Shown here one piece after another: positions 7,725-35,766 of a stretch of DNA of 37,620 nt (position 1 is the first letter of the stretch; each line of letters opens with the position of its first letter). The position numbers and the translations under genes were made by a program. This DNA is from a virus: IMG/VR virus record IMGVR_UViG_3300043429_000957, positions 1 to 37,620 of that record. One strand, written 5' to 3'. The notes beneath the pieces are model-generated. The model did not search any database. It saw only the letters and a list, made by a program, of their open reading frames with translations, and had not been told where the DNA came from.

Positions 7725-9104
7725 TCAGCTAGTTTTGAGGAGGAAGTCCAGGATAGACATGTACTCACGACCAGAGGACTGCTCGTAGTTCCAGTAGCCA
7801 GTTGTCTGAAGAAGATCATTCATTTTGGCTTTCTTGGAATTGAGTTTATCAAAGACCTGTTCCGGTGACAGCATGAACGCATCTTGAAGAGCTGGAATGA
7901 AGGTTTTGGTATTCCAGTTATTCTTGATGAACAGGAACTGAGAAGTGAGCTCGATAGCACGATCGAGTTCGTAGTTCTTAGCCGCAAGAGAGCGGATGTC
8001 TTTGCGACCGAAGGAAACATCTGGGTACCAAATGCACGCATGCTTCGGACGAGCCGATCCGCCGTTAAGGCCGATGTACTCATTGACGCGAAGGTAGTGA
8101 AGATTGGTGCAGGTGTTGAGCATGCCAACAGACTGACTAACGACGAACGGAACAGCTTGACCGGAGCTGTTGGTCTTGTTGCGCTGGACGGACAAGATGA
8201 CTTCGTTGAGGTCGTTATCCGGTGTAGGACCGTCGGGGAACAGCGGCTCTTTGTTGGCGTCATGAAGAAGCATGCAGTTCCGAGTTTGGACCAAGGTCTG
8301 AGTAAGGAACTCGAAACGAGAACCTGTACCTTTCATCTTGTCGGATTGCTTCATGTGCTGCAACTGTTTCGAAGGAGGGTTGCGCGGATCAAGAGAAGTG
8401 TTGTCACCAGTGTGAGCGGTACATACGACGATGATACCGTACTCTTCGGCGATTTTGCGGAGGTGACGAATGAGAACGGTTTTCTTGTTACCGTCCACAA
8501 GCCAGATGGTTTTGTTCTTACCATCTTCGATGCCTTCCTTGTTCTCATTGATCATCGCATCTTCTTCGGCCGACTCGAGTTCGGTAAGACTGTCGATGAA
8601 GATGATGAACGGTTCCCACATCATCGCAGCTTGGCCTGTTCTGATATCGATGAACGGAGTCTTGATCATGATTTCCATCTTATTCTTGCGACGGATCTCA
8701 ACAATCTTTTTGACGTACTCCCAAGTACCGTTGATGCAGAATTCGGCACCGCCCTTGAGCGTGATGCGGTTGGAGATATCACGATCACCTTTGGGGTTGT
8801 TGAGTACGGTGTTGCAGAAACTGCCGACACGATGCTTCTCTTTCCGACCTTCGGTATCGATCAAGACCTCACGTGCCGACGGATAGATCCGGAGGAGACC
8901 ACTCAAGAACGACTGAATGAGAGTTGTTTTGAAGGTGTTGCCGAAACCGTGAGCACCGGTAATGAATCCACCAAAACCACCACTAAGGCGGAATTTGCCA
9001 TCTTCACAAAGATGGAAAGATCCTGTCATCAGATCGAACATAGTTCCTGTATTGTAAAGGAACTGTGGCGCACTGTCCATGGTAACTTCATCATAAATAG
9101 ACAT
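7725..9104 (-). CDS. RecA/UvsX-like ATPase with atypical P-loop
   Basis: 459 residues; RecA-type ATP-binding core. The P-loop lies near residues 50-61 (GAHGFGNTFKTT), with Phe where the Gly before Lys usually stands. Residues 80-86 (VLIDTEG) match the 'FIDAEH' segment that carries the catalytic acid of RecA. A Walker B strand ends at D171 (PFIIFIDSLTEL). IIVVCTAHTGDN near residue 225 fits the position of the RecA strand that precedes loop L2. The likely role is recombination or replication-fork repair on phage DNA, as for UvsX. It follows three related membrane-type proteins in the same direction and ends at a strong hairpin. AAGGAAAG precedes the ATG. Alternatives are a DnaB/RadA-like ATPase. 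Confidence 0.75.
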   Translation of the reverse strand: MSIYDEVTMDSAPQFLYNTGTMFDLMTGSFHLCEDGKFRLSGGFGGFITGAHGFGNTFKTTLIQSFLSGLLRIYPSAREVLIDTEGRKEKHRVGSFCNTVLNNPKGDRDISNRITLKGGAEFCINGTWEYVKKIVEIRRKNKMEIMIKTPFIDIRTGQAAMMWEPFIIFIDSLTELESAEEDAMINENKEGIEDGKNKTIWLVDGNKKTVLIRHLRKIAEEYGIIVVCTAHTGDNTSLDPRNPPSKQLQHMKQSDKMKGTGSRFEFLTQTLVQTRNCMLLHDANKEPLFPDGPTPDNDLNEVILSVQRNKTNSSGQAVPFVVSQSVGMLNTCTNLHYLRVNEYIGLNGGSARPKHACIWYPDVSFGRKDIRSLAAKNYELDRAIELTSQFLFIKNNWNTKTFIPALQDAFMLSPEQVFDKLNSKKAKMNDLLQTTGYWNYEQSSGREYMSILDFLLKTS

Positions 9105-13330: not shown

Positions 13331-13376
13331 CACCTACTGCTGCACCCTTTCGGGTGCAGCAGTAGGTGCTCTTTTT
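13331..13376 (+). terminator. Intrinsic terminator after the fibre gene
   Basis: A perfect 17-bp inverted repeat (13331-13347 with 13352-13368), a TTTC loop and then CTCTTTTT, 10 nt after the stop of the plus-strand fibre gene. A textbook terminator. Confidence 0.9.
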
Positions 13377-13423: not shown

Positions 13424-14086
13424 TTACACCGTAACCTCATCAGAAGATTCAGCTTTATTCTGCTGTCTCTCCAGACGAACCAGTTCACGAATGGCACGGT
13501 AATTGGAAGTGAATTGCTCGGTCGACTCTCCTTTGATCTGAGCCTCATGGAACTTACGCATAACGCGAATCTCGCTCAGCGTAACCCAAGGGGCACGATC
13601 TTCAGGATCAGCAACGACATTAGTCCCACGAATGACCGTCTCGACAGGATCAAGACTTTCGAACATGTGACGCATGCGCGCGATAGTCTGAACAGGAACA
13701 CCATGAACATTGCGTTCAGCCAACGCCTCATTGGAGAGGTTGGTGTTAACATGAACGATTTCGATTTTGTAGCCGCCCATCTGTTTAGCAATAGCGACAT
13801 AACGACGCACTTGCCAGAGGAGAATGTTCGTATTATCGATGATGATGCGCTCGGTACCACGCAGCATTTCAAGAATGCACCGCATCTGATTGGCAGCATG
13901 CATGCGAACGTTGAGATCAGGATCGAAGTTGTAGACACCGTCTTTGTAGAAGTAATCATCAGTCGAAAGGACGACGGTATTCTTACCGACAGACAAATTA
14001 TCTTTAGCGAGCTTGGACTTCCCACTGCCGGGAAGGCCGCGAAGGATGATGATTTCATTTTCTTGCTGAGCAGATTTTTGGGTCAT
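13424..14086 (-). CDS. P-loop kinase, N4BP2/polynucleotide-kinase-like
   Basis: 220 residues starting at MTQKSAQQ, with AGAGGAA before the ATG; the longer frame upstream would overlap the promoter-like box. It has a Walker A motif at residues 17-24 (GLPGSGKS), STDDYF at 41-46, IIIDNTNILLW at 81-91, and an arginine-containing lid-like segment LAERNVHGVPVQTIARM. This order is that of AAA_33 proteins such as the N4BP2 kinase domain and the kinase half of T4 polynucleotide kinase. The likely activity is phosphorylation of a nucleic-acid 5' end, perhaps in RNA or DNA repair. No phosphatase or ligase partner is seen nearby. It has its own promoter-like box and terminator. Confidence 0.8.
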   Translation of the reverse strand: MTQKSAQQENEIIILRGLPGSGKSKLAKDNLSVGKNTVVLSTDDYFYKDGVYNFDPDLNVRMHAANQMRCILEMLRGTERIIIDNTNILLWQVRRYVAIAKQMGGYKIEIVHVNTNLSNEALAERNVHGVPVQTIARMRHMFESLDPVETVIRGTNVVADPEDRAPWVTLSEIRVMRKFHEAQIKGESTEQFTSNYRAIRELVRLERQQNKAESSDEVTV

Positions 14087-14150
14087 GTTGTCGTTCCTCT
14101 TAATTGGGTTGGTCTTCGCTTCGAGGTCAATTTTCATTTTCCTCAATAAA

Positions 14151-14158: not shown

Positions 14159-14274
14159 TGTTCGTTATTAAATGAAATACTCTACTCCTAGCTAGGTCTG
14201 TATAGAAATATTTCTTTCTCTTTTTCTCGCTGTGAGAGATACTACTTGTTATCAAAAAATAAAGAATAGAAGAT

Positions 14275-14306
14275 CTACCCACCGGCTCATCTGAGCCGGT
14301 GGGTAG
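14275..14306 (-). terminator. Hairpin terminator after the small membrane protein
   Basis: A perfect stem of about 14-15 bp (14275-14289 with 14292-14306) and a very short loop, followed on the minus strand by a pyrimidine-rich run (ATCTTCTATTCTTTATTTTTTG). It lies next to the stop at 14310 and ends the operon that starts at 16088. Confidence 0.85.
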
Positions 14307-14309
14307 AGA

Positions 14310-16163: not shown

Positions 16164-16191
16164 CCCTAGTGCAACGTACGTTGCACTAGGG
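16164..16191 (-). terminator. Hairpin terminator after the DNA polymerase fragment
   Basis: A 28-nt perfect palindrome centred on ACGT, directly after the polymerase stop at 16200 and followed on the minus strand by TTTTAATCTC. It shows that the short polymerase frame is a transcriptional end, not an interrupted gene that resumes downstream. Confidence 0.8.
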
Positions 16192-16199
16192 GGTAGATT

Positions 16200-17843
16200 T
16201 CATCCTCTGGAGGCCATAAAGCCGGTGAGCATTTCCTCATATCCTGGTAGATTGAAGAACTTTGAACATAAGGCTACAGCGTTTTCTTGCGGAGCAGCAG
16301 CATGACCGAAGAAGTCGACGATGTCTTCAGGTGGTCTACCCTCGATGGTCAACATATTGGCTTTCTTAGTCTGACGACTGATGTTGGAACAGATGTTCAT
16401 GTTGGGATAAAAGGAGACGACGTCCAAGTCTGAAACAAGAGCACATAGCCCAGTTTCCTTATTCATCTCCTTAACCTTCTTCGTTCCTGTACCTCGTGCC
16501 AAGAGTGGACTAAGTACAGCACCACCAACGTTCTTGATCAGACTGTCGTATTCGCGTTCAAGGCTACCTTTACAGGATGCACTAACCGCACCTTTGCGAC
16601 GGCAGTAATCATGGAAGATATCCATGAGCTGAGCTGTTTGTTTGGCGAAACTCCCAATGGAAGTGAGCGGGATAAGTAGTAGCATGCTACTAACGTCATT
16701 GATAACCTTCTCCATGATCGGAAGGAGGAGGGCGTCAACGATGTTGTAGGCGCAGTACTCTTCGAATCGTGTGCGCTGCATCTCATGGTGACCGGCTTCG
16801 CCGAAGTCTAGCTTAGACGCACCGATAACATCAGAGGAGATGTCTTTGAGTTTGTAAGATGTGAGGTTACCATCAACTTTGCGAAGACGGCTGTACAATG
16901 CCATCGAGTCGTAAAACTGAGTGTACCCGCTCAGTTCGAACATATGCCAGCGGTGACTATAGTGAGCAATCAGTTCACTCTTGTCTTCGATGAACTTACA
17001 CACACGATATTCCCAAGGAACATCCGGATGACACATGATCTGGAAAGGATTAGCGTTGAAGAACTTGAGTCGGTTCAGGATGTAAGGAATATCGAAGTTC
17101 ATGTTCCAGACACTGATGAAATCATCCTTCTCTTTGTGGATATTAGCCATGATCCACTTGATGAGGTCGAGCTCGTTTCTGGTAACGTAGTACTCGATTT
17201 GAGGTCTGTATTTCTGGTAGACTTTCTTACCATCAGCGTTGAGCGATGCTTCGAATTTAACTAAGGCTGCATCAGTAATCTTCTTGATGTTTTCCAAACT
17301 GTTTTCATGAGGTAAGAAAGCAGCATGGATGGCGCAAAAGACTTTATGTTCATGAGAAACGTAAGTACATAGCTGGATTTCCTGGCCACCGAGAACTGAT
17401 GTCTCAATGTCGAGACCACCTACCCTATACTCGGAAGGTTCCTTTTCCGTAGAGTTGGCGAACGACTGCTTGATGATAACATCCATGTCAATTGATGCGC
17501 CATAAACATAAGGGCTATTGAGAAGGTCCGATTCTTTGACGAACTGGTTCGGTTTGTATCCGAGCAATCTTTTCAGTTCATCTTTGAGCTGGTAGTTTTG
17601 GACCTTGTATTCATCAAGTTCGCGCTTGTAAGCGAATTCTTTTTTGCGATCATGAAGATCTCTTAATCCAGGTTTAGTAACGAAGATGCTGCGACTGGGA
17701 TTCTTCCAGATCTTGAGTGTCGATTCGTTGGTTGCCACATTCTTAACGACGCCAATGACAGCATCGCCTGCATTGTCCTTAAGAGCTTTGTAAACTCCAT
17801 GGACATACTTGAATTGAGGTTTGTCTGTTTTGGTTTCCGACAT
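16200..17843 (-). CDS. Family B DNA polymerase, exonuclease domain and motif A only
   Basis: 547 residues starting at MSETKTDK (TAGGAGAAG 2-4 nt before the ATG). Exo I is at 143-149 (GLDIETS, D145 and E147), Exo II at 246-255 (WNMNFDIPYI, N249 and D251) and Exo III at 366-370 (YNIVD, Y366 and D370). GGAVLSP at 440-446 matches the 'GG.V..P' link of family B enzymes, and motif A lies at about 474-482 (DVVSFYPNM). The protein ends 65 residues after motif A, without motif B (KxxxNSxYG) or motif C (DTDS). Usual members run to 800-900 residues. It therefore holds proofreading and half of the palm; the rest must be a separate gene outside this window if the enzyme polymerises. It has its own promoter-like box and terminator. 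Confidence 0.85.
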   Translation of the reverse strand: MSETKTDKPQFKYVHGVYKALKDNAGDAVIGVVKNVATNESTLKIWKNPSRSIFVTKPGLRDLHDRKKEFAYKRELDEYKVQNYQLKDELKRLLGYKPNQFVKESDLLNSPYVYGASIDMDVIIKQSFANSTEKEPSEYRVGGLDIETSVLGGQEIQLCTYVSHEHKVFCAIHAAFLPHENSLENIKKITDAALVKFEASLNADGKKVYQKYRPQIEYYVTRNELDLIKWIMANIHKEKDDFISVWNMNFDIPYILNRLKFFNANPFQIMCHPDVPWEYRVCKFIEDKSELIAHYSHRWHMFELSGYTQFYDSMALYSRLRKVDGNLTSYKLKDISSDVIGASKLDFGEAGHHEMQRTRFEEYCAYNIVDALLLPIMEKVINDVSSMLLLIPLTSIGSFAKQTAQLMDIFHDYCRRKGAVSASCKGSLEREYDSLIKNVGGAVLSPLLARGTGTKKVKEMNKETGLCALVSDLDVVSFYPNMNICSNISRQTKKANMLTIEGRPPEDIVDFFGHAAAPQENAVALCSKFFNLPGYEEMLTGFMASRG

Positions 17844-17873
17844 AACTTCTCCTATTACGATGCGGGGTGTGAG

Positions 17874-17881
17874 GTAATACA
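17874..17881 (-). promoter_or_regulatory. TGTATTAC promoter element before the polymerase
   Basis: Minus-strand GATTGTATTACCTCAC, 31 nt upstream of the polymerase start at 17843 and just after the terminator at 17924. It differs from TATATTAC in one base. Confidence 0.5.
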
Positions 17882-17923
17882 ATCACTGCCAGCAATAAGA
17901 ATAAAAAAGACAAAGAAGATAGT

Positions 17924-17956
17924 CCTCTCCTCTCTCCCATCGGGAGAGAGGAGAGG
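17924..17956 (-). terminator. Intrinsic terminator after the RNase H operon
   Basis: A perfect 15-bp stem of purine/pyrimidine strands (17924-17938 with 17942-17956), loop of 3 nt, then on the minus strand ACTATCTTCTTTGTCTTTTTTAT. It lies 7 nt past the stop at 17963. Confidence 0.9.
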
Positions 17957-18232: not shown

Positions 18233-18739
18233 CTAACTGCGTAAATCGAAGCCTGTATCGATAAGCTCTTTTTTGGTTGAGATAGCCAAATTAGCCAACT
18301 TATCAACTCGTTCATTCCCAACGTTACCAGCATGACCTTTTACCCAAGTGATCATGACCTTGTGCATTTCTACCTGATGTATCAATCGTTGCCAAAGATC
18401 CTTGTTCTTGACGGGATCGCCCATGCGAGTTCTCCAGCCATTACGCTTCCATGAAGTGTACCACTTGTTGACCAAAGTGTCGACAATATACTTACTGTCG
18501 GTGAACACCTGAACCTCACAAATGACTTTCAATTCTTCGAGCGCCGCGATAAGACCCAACAACTCCATGCGATTATTGGTAGTGTGGCGATAACACTCAC
18601 ACAACTCCAACTCTTCATCGTTCCAGATGAGCAAAGATCCGTATCCTCCTTTACCAGGATTACCTTTAGCAGCACCATCGCTGTATATGGTAACCTTAGG
18701 AAGATCACCAAGAGGTAATTTGCTTTTCTTCTTAGCCAT
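18233..18739 (-). CDS. rnhA: Ribonuclease HI
   Basis: 168 residues starting at MAKKKSKL (GGAG 10 nt upstream); the ATG ten codons earlier has no ribosome site and lies close to the promoter box. All active-site residues of RNase HI are present: D21 in YSDGAAKGNPG, E59 in NNRMEL, D81 in VFTDSKY, H136 in VKGHAG and D146 in ERVDKLA. The basic segment SWKRNGWRTR at 96-105 matches the handle loop of E. coli RNase HI. The enzyme cuts RNA in RNA-DNA hybrids, such as primers of phage DNA replication. Length is normal for the family. It is the first gene behind a full promoter-like box. Confidence 0.95.
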   Translation of the reverse strand: MAKKKSKLPLGDLPKVTIYSDGAAKGNPGKGGYGSLLIWNDEELELCECYRHTTNNRMELLGLIAALEELKVICEVQVFTDSKYIVDTLVNKWYTSWKRNGWRTRMGDPVKNKDLWQRLIHQVEMHKVMITWVKGHAGNVGNERVDKLANLAISTKKELIDTGFDLRS

Positions 18740-18773
18740 AAGTTGCGTACTCCAAATTAGGTTGTTCAACTAG

Positions 18774-18808: not shown

Positions 18809-18846
18809 CTCTCCCTCTCCTAGCCTCGCGGCTAGGAGAGGGAGAG
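18809..18846 (-). terminator. Intrinsic terminator after the putative capsid gene
   Basis: A perfect 17-bp stem (18809-18825 with 18830-18846) with a TCGC/GCGA loop; on the minus strand it is followed by CTCTTTTTCTTTTTAG. It separates the highly expressed capsid candidate from the RNase H promoter. Confidence 0.92.
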
Positions 18847-18867: not shown

Positions 18868-20982
18868 TCAGACGTTGTAGGTAACGCCGGCAACACCAGT
18901 GACGTCGATGATAGCACCGATCGCGTTGGTGACAACGGGGAGCTCACGAGCGCTGGCGAACAGACGCTGGTTGGCACCACCATTGTTCTGGTAGTTGAAC
19001 TGGCTGACGAAGGTACCGCAGTCGAAGTTGATACCGAAGTTGAGTTCGGGTTGGGCATCGGCACCGATGAAGGGGATGAGGAGCATTTTGGTCTTCATCG
19101 AATCAAAGGTGGTGGTGATGACTTCGAGGATGGCACCGCCGGGGAGAACCAGCTTGTACTCGACGCCGTCGGCGTTGCTCACAGACTCACCACTTTGGAG
19201 GTGGTTGTGGATGTGAGGCTGGCCAAGGATGTTGGCGAGCAGCGAGGGCGAGGTGATGAGGCGGTAGGTAGGCTTCGAACCAGCAACCAGCTGAGTGGTG
19301 AACTTCGAGTCTTGGTGCAGCTTGGCGATGACACCGTTCAGGAAGGTGGTGGTACGAGCGATGATGTCGCCGGAACGGTCAGAGTCGCGGATAGCGGTCA
19401 GACCGGCGAAGGCGAGAGTAGCGCTGACGGAGGTCGGGATGACCTTGCCACCGAGAGCATAGAAGCGGCCGGGTTGTTCAGCGGCTTTCTTGCCACCGGC
19501 GATCCAGGCAGCGTTTTCAGCGGCAACTTTGTCCAGGCTGGTTTCGATGACGTCGACGAGACGCTTGTCGAGACCGATGCGGATGATGTTGCTGAGGGTA
19601 GCAGCGTTTTCGCTGTTCTCAGAGCGGCTGTCGCCCATGGCGTAGTCCATGACGAACACACGACCGACGGGGATCGGGTAGGTCAGTTGCTTGCGACGGG
19701 TCTGGACGGCGATGTCCGACTTGCGAAGGTTTTCTTCGCTGAAGCGGGCGTCGACGGTCCAAGCGGTAGCGACCGAGGTAGCTTCGGCGGCGATGGCAGC
19801 GGCTTTGTTGTTGGCAGCGGTGGTGACAGCAGCACCTTGCATGTTGCCGCCAGCGAAGGTAGCGAGAGCCATGGCGCTGACGATACCGGCACGGAGGTCG
19901 GCGGTAGCGGAGAGCTTGACGGTGATGGAAACGGCGTCATCGACAGCCATCGAGCCGAGGAGGACGGAAGCAACACCGGCCGAAGTCTTGGCATTCTTGT
20001 CAAGAGAAACGGTGAAGGTGGTGTTGAGAGCGCGCTCGACGGAGTCGCCGTTGGTGGTACGAGTCAGACGATCGCGGCTTTCCGGAACGGGAAGAGCGAA
20101 GGTTTCGGCGGTGGTACCGTCGTCCATGGTGACGTAGACGTACTCAGCCTTGATGCCGTCAGCGATGTGGTCGGTGCGGTTGATCTTGGCGTAGCCGGGG
20201 ATCGAGGAGTTGATCGAGAGTTTGACGATGTTGGCATCGCGACCGAGCTTGATCAGACCGTCAGCAACCAGTTCGCCGGAGGCGTTGGTGAGGAGGGGAA
20301 CGATGCGCTTGAGCTGAGCGTTCACCAGGCTGGGGTTGCTGTAGAGGTCAACCAGAGTGGTGGTGACGTCGCTGTTGGAGTCGTCGAGGGTGTAGATCTC
20401 GTTGGTCTCGCGGACCAGGACCACTTCGGAACCGGCGGCGCCACGGGTGGCGAAGGCGCGGGGGACGATGGTGGTGTGCCATTTCAGCATGGAGATGACG
20501 ATCGCGGTTTTGACGTCGATGGTCAGTTTGTCGGTGTCGATACCGAAGCTTTCCAGACCGGAACGGAAGGAGTTCATCAGTTCGGGAACGTAGAGGCTCT
20601 CGAGACCGATGCCGTTGCTGGCTTGAGAGACGCTGCTGTGGCCGATCCAGCCGGACTTGCCAGCGGCGGCACGAGCAACGATCACGGCGACTTGCTTGGC
20701 AGCTTCAGCCTGGCAAGATTGGGGGATGCCGGCTTCGCGGACGAGGGTGAGGATCTTTTCGGTGCCGATGGCGGAGGCGCCTTCAGCGCCGGCGTTGACG
20801 AAGGACTCTGTAGCGGCGAAGCGACCGCGATCATCAGCGCGGAAGCTGTTGGTGCTGGTCAGGAAGCCATCGACTTGTTTGCCGAGATCAGCGGCCAGGC
20901 CGGCGAGCGAGCCTTTCTTGCCGTTGACTTTGGCGTCGGTGGTGAGTTGATCGAGGAAGCTTTCGAAAGCAGACTTAGACAT
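18868..20982 (-). CDS. Putative major capsid protein (phiKZ-like)
   Basis: 704 residues, rich in Ala, Thr and Val, with few Cys and no membrane segment. GGAG lies 10 nt before the ATG. The size fits phiKZ-type capsid proteins (about 700-750 residues). The N-terminal 110-170 residues are Ala- and Lys-rich and would suit a cleaved delta-like region; AGAE at about residues 64-67 is one candidate for a phiKZ-type protease site, but cleavage is inference. The gene is visibly richer in G+C, with a narrow codon choice unlike its neighbours, as expected of the most expressed phage gene; the opposite strand is open for over 2 kb because of that bias. It stands alone between a long leader and a strong terminator. 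Another abundant structural protein, such as a sheath, remains possible. Confidence 0.65.
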   Translation of the reverse strand: MSKSAFESFLDQLTTDAKVNGKKGSLAGLAADLGKQVDGFLTSTNSFRADDRGRFAATESFVNAGAEGASAIGTEKILTLVREAGIPQSCQAEAAKQVAVIVARAAAGKSGWIGHSSVSQASNGIGLESLYVPELMNSFRSGLESFGIDTDKLTIDVKTAIVISMLKWHTTIVPRAFATRGAAGSEVVLVRETNEIYTLDDSNSDVTTTLVDLYSNPSLVNAQLKRIVPLLTNASGELVADGLIKLGRDANIVKLSINSSIPGYAKINRTDHIADGIKAEYVYVTMDDGTTAETFALPVPESRDRLTRTTNGDSVERALNTTFTVSLDKNAKTSAGVASVLLGSMAVDDAVSITVKLSATADLRAGIVSAMALATFAGGNMQGAAVTTAANNKAAAIAAEATSVATAWTVDARFSEENLRKSDIAVQTRRKQLTYPIPVGRVFVMDYAMGDSRSENSENAATLSNIIRIGLDKRLVDVIETSLDKVAAENAAWIAGGKKAAEQPGRFYALGGKVIPTSVSATLAFAGLTAIRDSDRSGDIIARTTTFLNGVIAKLHQDSKFTTQLVAGSKPTYRLITSPSLLANILGQPHIHNHLQSGESVSNADGVEYKLVLPGGAILEVITTTFDSMKTKMLLIPFIGADAQPELNFGINFDCGTFVSQFNYQNNGGANQRLFASARELPVVTNAIGAIIDVTGVAGVTYNV

Positions 20983-21307: not shown

Positions 21308-22927
21308 TTAGATGATGTTGTTGCTGGGTTGGATACCCAGGACACGTTCAAGGATTTCGTGTACAACTTCGACATTGATGACGAAGAGCCACTGAGCCTT
21401 GAGACGCTTCAGAAGAAGTTTGTCTTCAGCGCTGATCCCACTCGCATCGTTAGCCAGAACTCTTTCGATGATGAAGAGAGCTTCGGAGCGATAGGTGTAG
21501 GAGTCGAGAGTGTCAGGATCTGGGAGTGTGAGCTTGTATCCTCCATCATCATTGCTTGATTTGGGATCTGTATCCTTAGCACCGATGGCAAGACCATCTG
21601 TGTTTTCAGGAGTAGAACCGGTATCGGTATCCTTGGATTGACTATCCGGATCGTAGATGATGTCATCGACATCATCATCGTCGTCCTGATCTTCATCATC
21701 ATCGTTATCATCACTGATATCGATGTTGTTGGGATCGGAACTCGGATCATAAGGGACGAAGTCGAGGCTGCTGTCGTCAACACCGGAATCATCTTCAACG
21801 GCCTTGAAGAGTTGAGAACCGACATCGAGACCAGTCACATACCACTTATGCTGAGGCTTGAAAGCCTCGGTAGCGGAGACGGTAATGTCATCCTTGATGG
21901 TAGGATTAGACAGCGCTTGAGTCAGATAGGAGAAGAGTTTGGAGAATGTGTCTTTGTATCGAGCTTCTGTGGCCAGATACTTGAAGATCCTGGATGTGAC
22001 CGGACCGAGAGGGTATCTACGGACATTGAGGAGTTGAGTCAGCATGACAGCGTAGCCTTCAATCCAGTAAGGCTTCAACTCTTCATCGAGGAACTTATCC
22101 ACGTCGAAGTAGGCAAGAGTAATCTTGTCTTTTGGTACATCGCAGTAGATGCCTTGAATGATGAGCGGCATGGCATCCGATGAAAAGACGCCAGCCTTAC
22201 GCAGAGCGTAATTGTCGCTTTCCATGTTGGCAAGACCGACGTAACCGAGGAGCTCGTCAACTGATCCTTTAGGGAAGTCGAAACAAAGATAATAGCGGAG
22301 AAGTCTCCCAATACCTGCGGCAAAGAAGCTATCCTTAGCAACATCTCCGCTCTTGAGTGTAAATGTTGCACTCTGGGTACCAGCATAAGCGCTAACGCTA
22401 AGGTACTCAGGGCAACAGACCAGGGCTCTGACGTCTTCAAACTCAAGGTCTTCAAGTTTCTCGCCAGCGAGAGACTTAGCTACAAAGAGAATGTATGAGG
22501 CGTAGACGCCGAGGTTGTTGCGGTAAGAATTGGTCCCAACCGCACCGAGACAGTATTGGAGATCTTTGATGGAGAAATTGACAGGAACAACTGCTCTGTC
22601 TCCGATGAGGTAGGAGCAGAAAGACAGAACTTCCATCTGCTTCTCGAGGATGAAGTCATCAGCTCTAGGCTGATAGTCCTTCCAGACAGAGTCTTTCTTC
22701 AGAGGATCGTTGTTGAGACGCATGATCTCGAAACTAAGTTCCTCTCGCATCTCTTTGATAAAAAATACAGGTGCTTTATGGTATACGTCAACCATAGAAA
22801 AGACCAAGCACCGATGCAAGATACTCAGAAGTCTATCCTTAGTCGGGTAGAGTCGAGTAGCGAAGCGATCAGGAAGGCCATCGGCGTTCCTGGTGTAAGT
22901 GAGCTCACATGAAGGAAGATTTCTCAT
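21308..22927 (-). CDS. Unknown protein with Asp-rich linker, next to capsid candidate
   Basis: 539 residues with AAGGAA before the ATG. Residues 1-375 form a large, mainly helical domain. Residues about 377-437 are an extremely acidic linker (for example DDNDDDEDQDDDDD near 406-419). Residues 475-532 form a final helical unit with IIERVL and VHEILERVLG. The position next to the putative capsid gene and the two-domain build would suit a virion, scaffold or packaging-related protein, but no known motif is visible. The acidic linker could act as a flexible spacer or calcium-binding tract. Function unknown. Confidence 0.65.
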   Translation of the reverse strand: MRNLPSCELTYTRNADGLPDRFATRLYPTKDRLLSILHRCLVFSMVDVYHKAPVFFIKEMREELSFEIMRLNNDPLKKDSVWKDYQPRADDFILEKQMEVLSFCSYLIGDRAVVPVNFSIKDLQYCLGAVGTNSYRNNLGVYASYILFVAKSLAGEKLEDLEFEDVRALVCCPEYLSVSAYAGTQSATFTLKSGDVAKDSFFAAGIGRLLRYYLCFDFPKGSVDELLGYVGLANMESDNYALRKAGVFSSDAMPLIIQGIYCDVPKDKITLAYFDVDKFLDEELKPYWIEGYAVMLTQLLNVRRYPLGPVTSRIFKYLATEARYKDTFSKLFSYLTQALSNPTIKDDITVSATEAFKPQHKWYVTGLDVGSQLFKAVEDDSGVDDSSLDFVPYDPSSDPNNIDISDDNDDDEDQDDDDDVDDIIYDPDSQSKDTDTGSTPENTDGLAIGAKDTDPKSSNDDGGYKLTLPDPDTLDSYTYRSEALFIIERVLANDASGISAEDKLLLKRLKAQWLFVINVEVVHEILERVLGIQPSNNII

Positions 22928-23008: not shown

Positions 23009-24541
23009 ATGGACATTGGCCCAGACTTCTTCCTAGACATTCTCTGTTTGGCTATATTCTCACAAACAGCAGATAGTAAAAAAATCGTAGCTAAAGCTCT
23101 TGAGTTGTACAATGCCGAGAGCGCAGAAAACTCAATGATGAATGATGGTGCTACCAAACTGTATATGGGCATTCTTCGAGAGATGGTCTCTTCCGATCTC
23201 GATGTCGATAGTCCCTCAGATGTTGCAGCACTTATGATGAAATTCAAACACAATCCTTTGGCTGATAAAGATCCTAATCTTATCAAGACCATCGAATCCG
23301 TTTTCACCAATAGGAAAGATGTTCCTCAGCGACGCGTTCAAGCTATTCAAAAGAAAGTGAGAACATGGTTGGTATGGGCAGCTAGCAATGCACGCCTTCG
23401 CAAAGCTTTTGCCATCAACAACAAGATTGCTCAGACTACTGACCCGATCAAACAAGATGCTCTTCTCAACCAGATGGCCGATCATGGTCGAGAGTTCGTC
23501 AAGACCTTTGACGAAACCTCCATCGATGCAGGATCGTCTAACTTAGGCTTCATCGACCTTAGCTGTCCTAACAGCGTTGCCAAAACCATCGAACAACATG
23601 CCAACAAGAAACGCGGCGGTGTTCTGAAGATGGGATGGCAAGGGTTCAATAAAGCCATGGGTGTTGCTGGTGGTATCACCATCGGAGAATCCTGCGGCTT
23701 CGCTGCATCCTCACACAACTACAAATCCGGTATCCTTATGGATATCCTGCGTTGGACAGTAACTCTCAATGACGCTCCTAGGAAAGATGATAGAACACCT
23801 TGTGTCGTCTTCATCTCTCTGGAGAACGAACTCGATGAAAACATGATGAACTGGTTCAAGTCGGCTTATGCCAACATGTTCAACCGTCCTCCTTCTGGAG
23901 ACATGAGTCATCAAGATATCATCAACTTCGTTGTTGATGTGTTCTCTCGTAGGGGATGGAAAGTTTTCGTCTATCGTGAGATGGGTGAAACATTCGGTTA
24001 CCCTGAATGGGTTAAGCTACACGCCGATCTCGCTAGCAACGGCTTCAACGTTGTAATGTCTGTCCTTGACTACATCACCCTGATGAACATGGGTGAGGGT
24101 GAAGGTACCAGCGCATCGAAAGCTCAACAGATGGCTAACCGTATCAGCAACTACGGTCGGCATAACAACTTCGCCTTCTGCACAGGTCTTCAGTTGAACA
24201 CTGACGCCCAGATCCTCGAATCCTCTGGTCAGATTAACATCGTTAAGCGATACGGTGCAAGTCACCTTGCCGACAGTAAAGGCTACAAACGCGAGTTTGA
24301 TGTCTTGTTCTTCTTGTACATCCAAAAGAACCACCTAGGCAGGTCTTACCTGACCATGCGTCTCGATAAACACAGATACGAGCACCACACTCCTGAAGCA
24401 GACAAAAGCTTCGCGTATTTGTTCCCGGATGCCGGCACGAAAATGCCCATCCTAGATGACATCAATGAACCTATCAGCAGGGCTGTCTACGACATCTACG
24501 CTGATGGTACTGCGGATAGCAACGAAATTGCAAGTTTCTGA
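23009..24541 (+). CDS. DnaB-like replicative helicase
   Basis: 510 residues with AAGGAG 10 nt before the ATG. The first 200 residues are helical, as in the DnaB N-terminal region. The C-terminal RecA-type core shows an altered P-loop near 233-240 (AASSHNYKSG; K239, S240), VVFISLENELDE at 266-277 with the catalytic-type Glu at 272 (DnaB 'fSlEms'), Walker B VVMSVLDYITLM at 348-359 (D354; DnaB 'iDYLqlm'), and TGLQLNTDAQ at 392-401 (DnaB 'sQLnR', sensor Gln at 395). KNHLGRS and LDKHRYE near the end fit the last core strands. It would unwind DNA at the phage fork with the polymerase and RNase H. The P-loop lacks the usual GK pair. Confidence 0.8.
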   Translation: MDIGPDFFLDILCLAIFSQTADSKKIVAKALELYNAESAENSMMNDGATKLYMGILREMVSSDLDVDSPSDVAALMMKFKHNPLADKDPNLIKTIESVFTNRKDVPQRRVQAIQKKVRTWLVWAASNARLRKAFAINNKIAQTTDPIKQDALLNQMADHGREFVKTFDETSIDAGSSNLGFIDLSCPNSVAKTIEQHANKKRGGVLKMGWQGFNKAMGVAGGITIGESCGFAASSHNYKSGILMDILRWTVTLNDAPRKDDRTPCVVFISLENELDENMMNWFKSAYANMFNRPPSGDMSHQDIINFVVDVFSRRGWKVFVYREMGETFGYPEWVKLHADLASNGFNVVMSVLDYITLMNMGEGEGTSASKAQQMANRISNYGRHNNFAFCTGLQLNTDAQILESSGQINIVKRYGASHLADSKGYKREFDVLFFLYIQKNHLGRSYLTMRLDKHRYEHHTPEADKSFAYLFPDAGTKMPILDDINEPISRAVYDIYADGTADSNEIASF

Positions 24542-26443: not shown

Positions 26444-28033
26444 ATGATTCCAGTTGCAATCGATCTCACAGTCATCAACAGCACAACTAACACCGTTAGC
26501 ATCTCTGGGGACGTCGCTGGCGTTCCTGGAACACGGTACACTATCACTGGCGATGCGGTTGTCACTCTGCCCGATGCTCTGACCACTCCGGTTGGTTCGG
26601 TTATCTACATTGATCAGATTTCTGGTGTCGGGTCATTCCTGGACACTTCTTCTGAATCGCCTGATGAGTTCATAATCCCTCGGTACCAAAACGTTTACCC
26701 GAACATGGTTCAGGGATGCATACTTCTCCAGGTTATGGGTTATATGCAGTGGTGGATGATCAAAGCTGAGTCTTCTCTGTCCGGGGCCAATGCAGACATT
26801 ACTGTCGTTGAATCCACGCTTACTGCCTTGCAAAGCATGGTTGACGACATTGAAGTTAATGTCGACACCTTGACTACCGATCTGAGCGGTCTGACTACAC
26901 GAGTAGGGGCCTTAGAAAGTAGCTCGTCATCAGCCGCTTCTTCTATCACCTCTCTGCAAACGTCATACGCTAGTCTCAACACTAGGATGGGGACTGCTGA
27001 GGCTAACATCACCAACCTCCAATCTACATCAGCTGCCAACTCTTCGGCCATCACCGCTCTTCAAGCCAGTGTAGCATCAAACACAAGCTCCATCAACGCC
27101 AATACCTCCAGCATCAACTCCATAAATTCAAATCTCGCTAGTCTACAAAGTAGCTACAATGCTTTCGTGACAGCAACAAATGCATCCATTGGAACAATCA
27201 ACACTCAGGCGTTCACGCCTACAAAGTTTGATTTTGTTGCCTCGTCTCCTACCTCAGGAAGTGATGGCTCTTTGTACTTTGACAGTGCGACTAAGAGTAT
27301 GAGTTATTGGAGGAATGGGATTTCTTTACGCCTAGGCTTCGATCAGACTAGGATCGTTCACAACGCCACTGGCGCTACGATTCCTAAAATGTCGCTGATC
27401 TACTACAGCGGTTCCGATGGAACTTACGCCAATGCAGTTCTGGCCAGAGCCGACTCAGCACTCAGTAGTACAGTTGCCGGTTGGACGACAGCCGATATAG
27501 CCGACGGCGCTGATGGTCTCGTCATCCAAGCCGGCCTCCTCAAGAACGTTGATACTTCAGCTTTCACTCTCGGTCAAAGTTTATACCTTAGCCCGACTGT
27601 AGCCGGTGGCGTTGTAACTTCCATGCCGAGTTATCCGAATGCACCTATACTTGTTGGTGTTGTTGTATCGGTTGGTACTTCTGGATCTATCGCGGTTCAG
27701 ATCACTCGAGTATACACACCTCAAGTTGCCGTTAGTTCAACTCCTTCTGCCGCCACAACGATCAACATCGATGATACCAACATCGGCTTCGGTCATGGCA
27801 ACATCATCTACTGCACAGCCAACTCGCCTATCACAGTCAATAGCTCCTTCGCCAACACAAAAGTAGGTACCGTTAAGGTTATCCAACTTGGTACAGGTCA
27901 GATAACTTACGCCGGTGCCGATGTTTCTCCTGGTGTTGGATTGACTGGTAAGAGCAGAGCTCAGAAGACTGTTGCTGAACTGATTTACTATGCAGCTTCA
28001 ACCGCACCTCTCTTAACTGGAGACATCGCATAA
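26444..28033 (+). CDS. Coiled-coil tail fibre
   Basis: 529 residues, GGGAGAA before the ATG. Residues 1-110 form a compact beta domain; residues 51-73 (GSVIYIDQISGVGSFLDTS...) match, at the same positions, the N-terminus of the fibre at 34486-35766. Residues about 115-250 are a long run of heptads rich in Leu, Ser, Asn and Thr (for example ITSLQTSYASLNTRMGTAEA), a trimeric coiled-coil stalk. Residues 260-529 form one or two beta-rich tip domains with PTSGSDGSLYFDSATKSMSYW. The stop overlaps the next ATG by one base. Role: receptor binding or fibre stalk, inferred. Confidence 0.7.
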   Translation: MIPVAIDLTVINSTTNTVSISGDVAGVPGTRYTITGDAVVTLPDALTTPVGSVIYIDQISGVGSFLDTSSESPDEFIIPRYQNVYPNMVQGCILLQVMGYMQWWMIKAESSLSGANADITVVESTLTALQSMVDDIEVNVDTLTTDLSGLTTRVGALESSSSSAASSITSLQTSYASLNTRMGTAEANITNLQSTSAANSSAITALQASVASNTSSINANTSSINSINSNLASLQSSYNAFVTATNASIGTINTQAFTPTKFDFVASSPTSGSDGSLYFDSATKSMSYWRNGISLRLGFDQTRIVHNATGATIPKMSLIYYSGSDGTYANAVLARADSALSSTVAGWTTADIADGADGLVIQAGLLKNVDTSAFTLGQSLYLSPTVAGGVVTSMPSYPNAPILVGVVVSVGTSGSIAVQITRVYTPQVAVSSTPSAATTINIDDTNIGFGHGNIIYCTANSPITVNSSFANTKVGTVKVIQLGTGQITYAGADVSPGVGLTGKSRAQKTVAELIYYAASTAPLLTGDIA

Positions 28034-30762
28034 TGTCTGCACACCTCCTCATCATTCCAACTCCGTCTCAGGCTGAGTTGGTATGGGATGCCGCTCCCAG
28101 AGATGGGAGCAACAACCCTACTTCAGGAACATGGGACAACGCTTTGTGTAACTGGACTCCGGATGGAGGATTTCACAATATCCCGTGGGTTGCTGGTAAG
28201 AATGCCAAGTTACTTGGCGCTACAACCCTAACCATTTCAGGTACGGTAGATGTCGGTAATCTGGACATGTCATCCGCCTCAGACACAATTACCGGCGGCA
28301 CGATTAACTTCGCTGCCGCTGTTACTATTGCCGATGGTTCCACTAATGATGTCATATCATCGATAATTGCTGGTGCGGCAACTAGCATAACCAAGACCGG
28401 TACTGGCACGTTAACTATTTCTAGCGCACTTTCAACTTTCATCGGTAATCTTTTGATTACTGCCGGCACATTGAAGGGAGCCACGGGAACAGTAAACGGG
28501 TCTACCGGGTTCGCTGGTCCGGCTAACTTTGCTGCCACCAAAATCCAACTAAGCGCTGGGGCGGTTTTCGACAACGGTGGTGCCGGATCGGGCGCATCGG
28601 ACATACCTTACGGGCTAACACTTAACGGAACCGGTATAAACGGTTCTTGCTGGGTAAACTCAGGATCCGGCGCCGCTCTCGGACAAATTCAAACTCCAAA
28701 CATAGCTCTTAGTGCTAATGCTACGATTGGCTCTGTTACAGGAGCCACTGGTAATATGGCAATGATTGCTCCTAGTTTCGGAGTCACAACAATTGTTCTG
28801 GTAACGTTCAAGCTGACTAAAATTGGTAGCAACACAATCACGCTAATAGGAACCAGCATCACTAAGACTGGCGTACTAACTGCAAATGATGTAACAATCA
28901 GCGGCGGTAAACTATCGACGGCAACGACAGCTTTGGCTGCTTCAACAATAGGTATCACCCTATCCAATACGGCTGGTGTGATATTGGAGTGTTTGATTGC
29001 ATCAGCCATCGGTGCACTTAGCACTAGCGGCAATTCCTCATCGGTAACGATGGCATCTGGAATCACACTTACTGTTGGTAACTCCAACGGGGTGGCATCA
29101 ACATTCTACAACCTTAGCGGTCTTGGCAGTCTAACTGTAACCGGATCGGCTAACACATTCTTCTATTCTAATTCTTACTCCGGAACAACAACGTTTTCTG
29201 TTTCCGGCATTAGTAGAGTTGGAAATACAGATACTCCCTTCGGCACTTCAGCCCTAGTCGTTGCATCATCTTTCACATTGGCGACAAATACAGATAGTGC
29301 CGCAACGCGAACATGGAGTAACGCGATTACCATCAACTCAGGGGTCACTCTCTCGGTTGACGGGGGCTACTTCTCCATAGTTTTAAGTGGTAAGATATCT
29401 GGTCCCGGTAACTTGAGTGGTGCATCTTCAGGCTCGGTGTCCTTAACACATACAGGCAACGATAACACTGGTACCCTTACTAGCGGTAACATGGCAGGTA
29501 TGATATTAAGTTTCGCTTCATGGGCAGGGGCTGTAAGCATCAACGTTGCTAATTTCGTCATAACGGCAACATGTACTTCAGGGAACTTGACATCAGCAAG
29601 TTCTACTGGTACAATAACAATCAATGCATCAGTCACCTGGTCAGTCACTAAGACAACATCATCGACTGTCAACAATGTCCTAGCTGGAGCTGGAAATTTT
29701 GTTCTTCTAGGGACTGCAACGTTGACGATGGGTGGAGTTAACACATGCTCCGGTACGTTTAGAATCGGGGCCTCTAACGGCTCGATGTCGTTCTCGACTT
29801 ATTCTGCCGCAGCGGCTTTCGCATCTCTTGGTTTCTTAGCCAATGGTTACATAAGATTCACGCAAGCGTCTGCTGTAACTATGAGCAGACCTTTGGTCCT
29901 CGCTGATGTGGTTGGTACCACAGCCAGTGCAGCAGGCTCTTCTGTGCAGGCCTTCCAGTTCCAAACTGTCGCCACAACACACACTATCTCTGGGTTGATT
30001 AGTGGCGGTGGTGCAACAGCTATCCTCCTACTGCGGTGTTCTAGTTCAGCAGACGCCTCTACGATTATCGTGATGGCAACGTCGAATACTTACACCGCTC
30101 TTGAAACACTGCTCTACAGTGGTAGATTCATCATTTCTGCTGGGGTAGCTAATCCGTTCGGTTCTTCTACGATGGTGAGACTGTGGCTCAATGCAAGTGC
30201 CTCAGGGGATCTTGTTTTCAATGAAACACGAACATTTTCCTACAACCTAAACTTCTACGGCAGCACGAGTACGATCAATGCCAACGGATTTACCGTTACT
30301 CTTTCCGGAGTCGTAAGCGGAGGAGCAACTGCTAGTTTGGTTGGTACAGGTAAGTTCATCTTTACTGCCGCTAACACCGTTGCTTCAATCCTTGTTGGTA
30401 GTTCTGCTGACATCACCGGATCTACTCCAGCATTGACGGTTTCTTCTGGTGGTAGACTTAGTGGTGGGTCGGCTCAGACAGGGGTAGTTACAGCATTGAC
30501 AATGAGTGCTGTTGGATCTATTCTTGATGTCAACTCGATCACTACCTCTTCCTGTTCTATGATAAGTATTACAACGTTAACAGCCGCTAGTGGGTTCTCG
30601 GTAAACGTTCTTGGTGCGTTAAACCTTGGTACATACACGCTAATTGCATGTTCTGGTGCATTACCGAGTACTGTACCAACATTGACGACCAATAACTCGG
30701 GACACACATGTACTCTCATGTGGACTCCAGGTATCGGTCTTGAGCTACTCGTCTCCGTCTAA
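28033..30762 (+). CDS. Autotransporter-associated-repeat fibre or adhesin
   Basis: 909 residues, almost entirely Ser, Thr, Gly, Ala, Val and Ile. Residues 17-55 have the Trp-spaced pattern VWDAAPRDGSNNPTSGTWDN...NWTP...W seen at the start of autotransporter-repeat proteins. Residues 119-149 (ITKTGTGTLTIS...LLITAGTLKG) fit the PATR motif (TIGR02601: 'l.K.GaGtLtLsg.nty.G.t.i.aGtl'), and looser copies such as GAGNFVLLGTATLTMGG recur to the end. This build predicts a long right-handed beta-helix. There is no signal peptide or autotransporter barrel, so it is not a bacterial autotransporter. Adjacent to a coiled-coil fibre gene; most likely a long fibre or adhesin of the virion. Confidence 0.7.
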   Translation: MSAHLLIIPTPSQAELVWDAAPRDGSNNPTSGTWDNALCNWTPDGGFHNIPWVAGKNAKLLGATTLTISGTVDVGNLDMSSASDTITGGTINFAAAVTIADGSTNDVISSIIAGAATSITKTGTGTLTISSALSTFIGNLLITAGTLKGATGTVNGSTGFAGPANFAATKIQLSAGAVFDNGGAGSGASDIPYGLTLNGTGINGSCWVNSGSGAALGQIQTPNIALSANATIGSVTGATGNMAMIAPSFGVTTIVLVTFKLTKIGSNTITLIGTSITKTGVLTANDVTISGGKLSTATTALAASTIGITLSNTAGVILECLIASAIGALSTSGNSSSVTMASGITLTVGNSNGVASTFYNLSGLGSLTVTGSANTFFYSNSYSGTTTFSVSGISRVGNTDTPFGTSALVVASSFTLATNTDSAATRTWSNAITINSGVTLSVDGGYFSIVLSGKISGPGNLSGASSGSVSLTHTGNDNTGTLTSGNMAGMILSFASWAGAVSINVANFVITATCTSGNLTSASSTGTITINASVTWSVTKTTSSTVNNVLAGAGNFVLLGTATLTMGGVNTCSGTFRIGASNGSMSFSTYSAAAAFASLGFLANGYIRFTQASAVTMSRPLVLADVVGTTASAAGSSVQAFQFQTVATTHTISGLISGGGATAILLLRCSSSADASTIIVMATSNTYTALETLLYSGRFIISAGVANPFGSSTMVRLWLNASASGDLVFNETRTFSYNLNFYGSTSTINANGFTVTLSGVVSGGATASLVGTGKFIFTAANTVASILVGSSADITGSTPALTVSSGGRLSGGSAQTGVVTALTMSAVGSILDVNSITTSSCSMISITTLTAASGFSVNVLGALNLGTYTLIACSGALPSTVPTLTTNNSGHTCTLMWTPGIGLELLVSV

Positions 30763-34485: not shown

Positions 34486-35766
34486 TCACCACAGGGTCAT
34501 TGCGATGGCATAGGCCTTCATCGTGTCGATGGGATCGGATGCGCCTGTTTTGATGAGAATATATCCTAAGCCGGTTTCGTAACTGTAGTAACCGATGGTA
34601 CCTTGACCATCATAGTTGAGGACTTTCACAACATCGCCAGGTGAGACTTCACCAACAGCATCACCGATGGTTAGTGCGTTTCTTTCAGCGATGGTGTTGA
34701 CAGTGTAGGCTTCTTGCACCATCTTGGAGGCTAAGATAGATATTTTGCTATCAGTGTAGGACTGAGCCGATGCGATGGCTTCTGTCTTTTTAGTCTCAGC
34801 GTAAGACTGAGCGCTGCTCAGGATAGTGGTGTCAGCCGTTGACGCGTAACTTTGTGCTGCCGTCTGAGCATTTGTAGCTTTTGTTGTGGCATCTGATGCA
34901 GCAGCATCAATAGCCTCAGCTTTCTTTGTATCGGCATATGAATTAGCCGAGGCAAGAATAGCTGTGTCGGCAGACGTAGCAAAAGCCTGAGCTCCGGATT
35001 GTGCCGTGTTGGCTTTTGTGGTCGCATCTGAAGCGGCGGCATCAATAGCTTCTTGCTTTTTGGAATCGGCATAGCTTTGAGCACCAGCCTGGGCAGAATT
35101 GGCCTTAGACGTCGCATCGGCAGCGGCAGCTGCGATGGCTTCTGCTTTCTTCGTATCAGCGTAAGACTGTGCATTCGATTGTGCAGTATCTGCCTTGGTT
35201 GTTGCGTCGGAGGCGGCAGCACTAATGGCTTCTGCTTTCTTCGTATCTGCATACGCGTTAGCAGAGGAAAGAACCGTAGCGTCAGCTGCCGTAGCGAAAG
35301 CCTGAGCGGCGTTCATTTTGATCGTGGCGTCGGTAGCTGCGGCAACGATGGCTTCTTGCTTTTTGGCGATGGCGAAGTTTTGGTCAGCTGTAGAGTTGCT
35401 AGCCAGGTCGCTAGATGAAACTCCATCAAATGAGGAGCTCGGGAACATCACCCATTCAAGACGACCGGAGAGGTACGCTAAGTAGAAAACCTGAGACGTT
35501 CCTTCAACGATGGAGGCCGATCTTGTATAACCACCTTTAGGGTAGTCAGGCAGTTGAGAAGTAGAATCGAAAACTTGAGAAATCCCAGATACCTGAGAAA
35601 CTCGCACTGCCGAGCCTGCCTCAACACTCTTAACATCGGCAAGATCGATGATGACAGAACCGGTTACCTTGATTTCAGTATTGATCGGCGCTGTAATGTT
35701 TGAAGACACATCGGTACTACCAACAATGGAGTACCCAAGTCCTTCAGGGTCGTAAGTTGTGAACAT
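34486..35766 (-). CDS. Tail fibre with Ala-rich 30-residue repeats
   Basis: 426 residues with GGAGAA 11 nt before the ATG. Residues 1-112 are a beta domain that resembles the N-terminus of the fibre at 26444. Residues about 130-342 are built from a roughly 30-residue repeat (SYADTKKAEAI.AAASDATTKA..AQ..AQ) with shorter variants, a helical, probably trimeric stalk. Residues 350-415 (VNTIAERNALTIGD...GDVVKVLNYDGQGTIGYY) form a small beta tip of a kind frequent in phage fibres. It follows the lectin-like gene in the same direction, with a hairpin in between. Confidence 0.7.
   Translation of the reverse strand: MFTTYDPEGLGYSIVGSTDVSSNITAPINTEIKVTGSVIIDLADVKSVEAGSAVRVSQVSGISQVFDSTSQLPDYPKGGYTRSASIVEGTSQVFYLAYLSGRLEWVMFPSSSFDGVSSSDLASNSTADQNFAIAKKQEAIVAAATDATIKMNAAQAFATAADATVLSSANAYADTKKAEAISAAASDATTKADTAQSNAQSYADTKKAEAIAAAAADATSKANSAQAGAQSYADSKKQEAIDAAASDATTKANTAQSGAQAFATSADTAILASANSYADTKKAEAIDAAASDATTKATNAQTAAQSYASTADTTILSSAQSYAETKKTEAIASAQSYTDSKISILASKMVQEAYTVNTIAERNALTIGDAVGEVSPGDVVKVLNYDGQGTIGYYSYETGLGYILIKTGASDPIDTMKAYAIAMTLW
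34741..35379 (-). repeat. Tandem repeat array coding for the fibre stalk
   Basis: Imperfect repeats of about 90 bp within the fibre gene, corresponding to residues 130-342. The clearest copies cover residues 171-200, 201-230 and 231-260; a longer variant with an inserted AFATSADTAILASAN-type segment follows. Copies differ at many third codon positions, so the array is old or recoded. Repeat-number changes would alter stalk length. Confidence 0.7.

Follow-up and report, generated by a model that had tools for sequence, protein, structure and literature searches.

The gene at 16200..17843, on the minus strand of a 37,620-nucleotide stretch of viral DNA (the window), raises the question of what a family B DNA polymerase that ends just after motif A can be: one subunit of a split enzyme, an exonuclease that works alone, or a broken gene. 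The open reading frame (16200-17882) is open from a TTG codon, and ATG 17843 was chosen as the start because a GGAG ribosome-binding site backs it, which gives a 547-aa protein with its stop at 16200. Based on profile searches, alignment and an AlphaFold model, this chain contains an N-terminal domain, a 3'-5' exonuclease and the beginning of the palm, including motif A. The catalytic motifs can be read directly on the minus strand and compared with 34 relatives: Exo I is D145-I-E147 (17403..17411; D145 and E147 invariant), Exo II is N247-M-N-F-D251 (17091..17105; N247 and D251 invariant), Exo III is Y366-N-I-V-D370 (16734..16748; Y366 and D370 invariant in the alignment), and polymerase motif A is D472-L-D474-VVSFYPN481 (16401..16430; D472, D474, Y479 and P480 invariant), which aligns with SFDLTSLYPS of RB69 gp43. 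The only domain recognised by Pfam in the chain was the PolB exonuclease domain (PF03104, 2.3e-10). The chain ends 73 residues past the catalytic Asp474, and the 65 residues given in the earlier note are right when counted from the end of motif A. The same note had called all three exonuclease motifs and motif A intact, and both the sequence and the invariant columns bear this out; its observation was correct in each detail that we checked.

The end of the gene is marked by an intrinsic terminator on the same strand (16164..16191), which lies directly 3' of the stop codon and has a perfect 12-bp stem, a tetraloop and a T-run (CCCTAGTGCAACGTACGTTGCACTAGGG-TTTT). The perfect closing hairpin described earlier was thus confirmed, with a folding energy of -21.9 kcal/mol and z = -6.3. 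Another terminator-like perfect hairpin lies 5' of the polymerase gene (17924..17956, minus strand), and with hairpins on both sides the gene looks like its own transcription unit. Long perfect intergenic hairpins are unusually frequent in this DNA: 25 terminator-like sites were counted in 10.5 kb, compared with 8.9 expected from shuffles, and several stems reach 15-17 bp. Besides the two that flank the polymerase gene, long examples are located at 13331-13368 (plus strand), 18809-18846 (minus strand) and 14274-14307.

The absence of motifs B and C from the frame could mean that a longer polymerase gene was shortened, either recently by mutation or through an error in sequencing. The probability of this is negligible, since the whole family ends at the same position and a frameshift is thereby excluded. 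PHROG 3011, a phiKZ-group 'DNA polymerase' family of 576 aa, matches the protein practically end to end (residues 10-545 of 547, profile 11-567 of 576, E = 7.8e-100) and shares its end point. Where the frame of a relative runs through motif A without interruption, the chain stops approximately 70-150 residues past the motif, with one exception (L054). The terminator directly after the stop also argues against truncation, and no continuation into the fingers was found in the reading frames downstream of 16200, so that the suggested check for a frameshift near this position gave none. When the window was searched with PF00136 and with a profile of the C-terminal partner built from 40 members, neither gave a match, which agrees with the earlier statement that the gene lacks motifs B and C and that they were not seen in other genes of the window, and also speaks against a shortened frame. 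A complete one-chain family B polymerase was rejected as well, because motif A stands alone in the chain and PF00136 has no match. The exceptional relative L054 (4657-5772) carries approximately 370 acidic, unrelated-looking residues past the normal end of the chain, in an open frame of 950 aa, and its C-terminal partner chain is located elsewhere on the same contig. A search of the retrieved loci for a fused gene of both chains gave none.

Several neighbouring genes indicate the type of virus from which the fragment comes. A major capsid protein of phiKZ type (18868..20982, minus strand; PF25620, 1.9e-25) assigns the fragment to the phiKZ group, and two further markers of this group are present in the window, a divergent DnaB-like helicase (divDNAB; 23009..24541, plus strand; PF20307 1.4e-52, PHROG 3213 2e-58) and RNase HI (18233..18769, minus strand; PF00075, Pfam and PHROG). 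According to PMC7824862, divDNAB and the divergent polymerase occur together in phages of the phiKZ group, which also carry RNase H1. The same fragment encodes a UvsX-like recombinase (7725-9104, minus strand; PHROG 97, 6.8e-21) and a P-loop kinase-like protein (13424-14146, minus strand; AAA_33 6e-13, PHROG polynucleotide kinase 5e-13), together with large proteins of 426-909 aa that have no family match above the curated cut-off (21308-22927, minus strand; 28033-30762, plus strand; 34486-35766, minus strand). Among the scanned part of the fragment's ORFs, no match to multisubunit RNA polymerases or to the chimallin of nucleus-forming members was obtained.

In relatives, the missing half of the polymerase is encoded by a separate gene. 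In phiKZ, the N-terminal chain (N chain) is PHIKZ082 and the partner (C chain) is PHIKZ050, a separate and distant gene. PHIKZ050 comprises fingers and thumb and lacks motif A; recognisable in it are motif B (K..NNSYSG), motif C (SDTDS) and, further downstream, KNE and KHY motifs. Separate N and C chains were found in five named phages (phiKZ, SL2, Vibrio vB_pir03, Erwinia SNUABM_54 and Burkholderia FLC9), and in 26 of 28 IMG/VR contigs with an N chain the C chain is a separate gene; the two contigs without a C chain are 82 and 114 kb long. In the five nearest relatives having both genes, the distance between them is 78-112 kb. At a coverage of at least 80%, each chain was detected in 261 phage records (261 and 261), with matching counts across the main host groups. 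Motif A is invariant in the 34 N chains, which have 21-37% identity to the window protein; among 40 C chains, no Asp is invariant except the pair in motif C. Since motif A occurs only on N chains and the Asp pair of motif C on C chains, neither chain alone can form a two-metal polymerase site. The missing motifs B and C are most simply explained by the size of the record, a 37.6-kb fragment of a genome type that is at least 200 kb in relatives, and for this reason the absence of a C-chain gene from the window carries no weight.

The two chains could also be placed on a known structure. RB69/T4 gp43 is the best match for both by profile and by fold, and whereas gp43 is one continuous polypeptide, its parts are here divided between two chains. 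Against the PDB, the N-chain profile matched RB69 gp43 93-431 (E 2.6e-9), with motif A inside the alignment in a stretch that is weak by itself, and the C-chain profile matched 433-757 (E 9e-9) in the segments 433-505, 531-593 and 705-757. The AlphaFold model of the N chain superimposed on RB69 1-429 (Z 28.8, rmsd 3.5, 360 residues), and that of the C chain from the closest relative on 448-894 (Z 12-13, about 4 angstroms, about 370 residues). The two chains therefore complement each other without overlap on RB69 gp43, covering about 1-431 and 433-894, which puts the split point precisely at about residues 432-448 of that structure. The RB69-like part of the C chain is preceded by approximately 80 additional residues at the N-terminus, and a long helical stretch separates motif B from motif C, in agreement with the insert that PMC7824862 describes. 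In the model of the N chain alone, the exonuclease reached a pLDDT of about 90 or more, and the palm part with motif A (426-498) stayed below 50. Such low values would be expected if this part needs the partner chain, and the shallow alignment (34 sequences) could give the same result.

The intact Exo I-III motifs would also suit a free-standing 3'-5' exonuclease for repair, nucleotide recycling or separate proofreading, in which the motif A region is a vestige. This alternative, raised in the earlier note, has a precedent in Iyer et al. 2021, who describe the exonuclease as a stand-alone protein that is possibly associated with the polymerase (PMC7824862). We regard it as improbable, because a vestige would hardly keep D472, D474, Y479 and P480 invariant in 34 divergent homologues, and because the C chain has no motif A and there would be no polymerase site without the N chain. 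In the passages of Iyer et al. 2021 considered here, no mention of motif A on the exonuclease was found. The finding that the 'stand-alone exonuclease' of phiKZ-group phages carries an invariant strand of the polymerase palm sharpens that account and agrees with the annotation of Bacillus phage AR9.

Polymerase genes can also be divided by mobile elements. A split PolB with an intein is reported for MIJ3 (PMC6892783), gene 43 of the T4-like Aeromonas phage 44RR is split into 43 and 43B, and group I introns invade the N-chain gene in relatives; accordingly, a split intein could unite the two halves once they are translated, or a recently inserted mobile element could have divided the gene, with MIJ3 and the T4-like Aeromonas phages as models. 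The chance of this is very slim. The family match from end to end leaves no space for an intein half, and in 44RR2.8t, although the N chain (gp43) likewise holds motif A and the C chain (gp43B) motifs B and C, the break lies inside the fingers (RB69 511-519) of an otherwise ordinary T4 gp43, with the halves adjacent at a distance of 49 bp. In contrast, the break is here at about 432-448, and the genes are tens of kb apart in relatives. The different break position and the family-wide end point led us to reject a split of the MIJ3 or 44RR type.

Taken together, we consider, with a probability of roughly 0.94, that the gene product is one subunit, the N-terminal one, of a family B replicative polymerase that a phiKZ-type jumbo phage assembles obligately from two chains, both of which contribute to the palm. 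The anatomy of the gene, the lineage-wide split, the partner genes of relatives and the complementary mapping on RB69 gp43 are observations, and together they strongly favour the earlier proposal of a natural split inside the palm which a second polypeptide must complete. In the proposed mechanism, the N chain would fold as N-terminal domain and 3'-5' exonuclease and would contribute to the palm its first strand, on which the motif A Asp lies. A second polypeptide, presumably encoded by a distant gene of this same virus, would supply the fingers, motif B with the dNTP-binding Lys, the Asp pair of motif C and the thumb. The two chains would associate physically with no covalent joining, so that the two-metal polymerase site would be assembled in trans and proofreading would arrive with the N chain. 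Published structures or biochemistry of the complex of both chains were not found. Indirect support comes from phiKZ, in which the hits of an antisense knockdown include both PHIKZ050 and PHIKZ082; in the same study, knockdown of PHIKZ082 induced transcription of the prophage Pf4, and a suppressor role was speculated (PMC12571901). As a tentative and rather doubtful suggestion, the division of the polymerase between motif A and the fingers may have been kept across this deep lineage because it is functional, for example through separate synthesis or import of the chains or through swapping of the N chain. If this is true, an active replicase with proofreading may form only once both chains meet in the phage replication compartment, or, alternatively, the C chain may be able to exchange its N chain during replication.

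The two-gene arrangement is already published as the lineage-wide state of phiKZ-type phages, and the copy in the window is a new, divergent member. A 'split subunit DNA polymerase' of phiKZ was reported in 2012 by Cornelissen et al. (as cited in PMC5105663), and the phiKZ polymerase cluster was described by Kazlauskas et al. 2020 (PMC7544198). PHIKZ082 resembles the window chain in having the exonuclease and motif A and in ending at the same point, and motifs B and C are on a C chain encoded far away (PHIKZ050). The N chain of the window has only about 25-27% identity to those of phiKZ-type isolates, and its partner is seen in relatives only. In AR9, which infects another host group and was compared by its published description, the division of labour between two genes is the same, with gp132 as exonuclease and partial catalytic domain and gp152 as catalytic subunit (PMC5312081). 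The closest relatives of the window N chain (35-45%) are uncultured phages. With this gene, the phiKZ-type split replicases gain a deeply divergent branch from uncultured phages, and the biology is otherwise as expected.

Introns invade the N-chain gene in several relatives. When 16 interrupted-looking N-chain loci were compared with Rfam, group I introns (RF00028, above the gathering score) were found in 10 of them, twelve introns in all; no group I intron was found in the window. In uncultured relatives, single introns are located at L093:4668-4973, L077:4407-4722, L084:4325-4638, L065:4317-4573, L083:4284-4737 and L023:4540-4897, and two introns each at L071 (4322-4673 and 4827-5160) and L085 (4202-4508 and 4648-4997). 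Several of these (L093, L077, L023, L065, L083 and L084) are placed at the motif A aspartate codons or next to them, and others lie further upstream; in L093 and L077, for example, the intron is placed between 'HVADLD' and 'IVSTYPN'. For essential phage genes, intron insertion at active-site codons is a recognised pattern (PMC12908238), and in the passages considered we found no earlier mention of introns in this polymerase subunit. In addition, inserts with long ORFs occur at nearby positions of the N-chain gene, at L021:4462-5425 and, downstream of the break, in L095, L096, L051, L067, L087 and L026. They are possibly intron-borne homing endonucleases, and the candidate in L021, the closest relative of the window, contains HNH-like sequence and interrupts the gene beside motif A.
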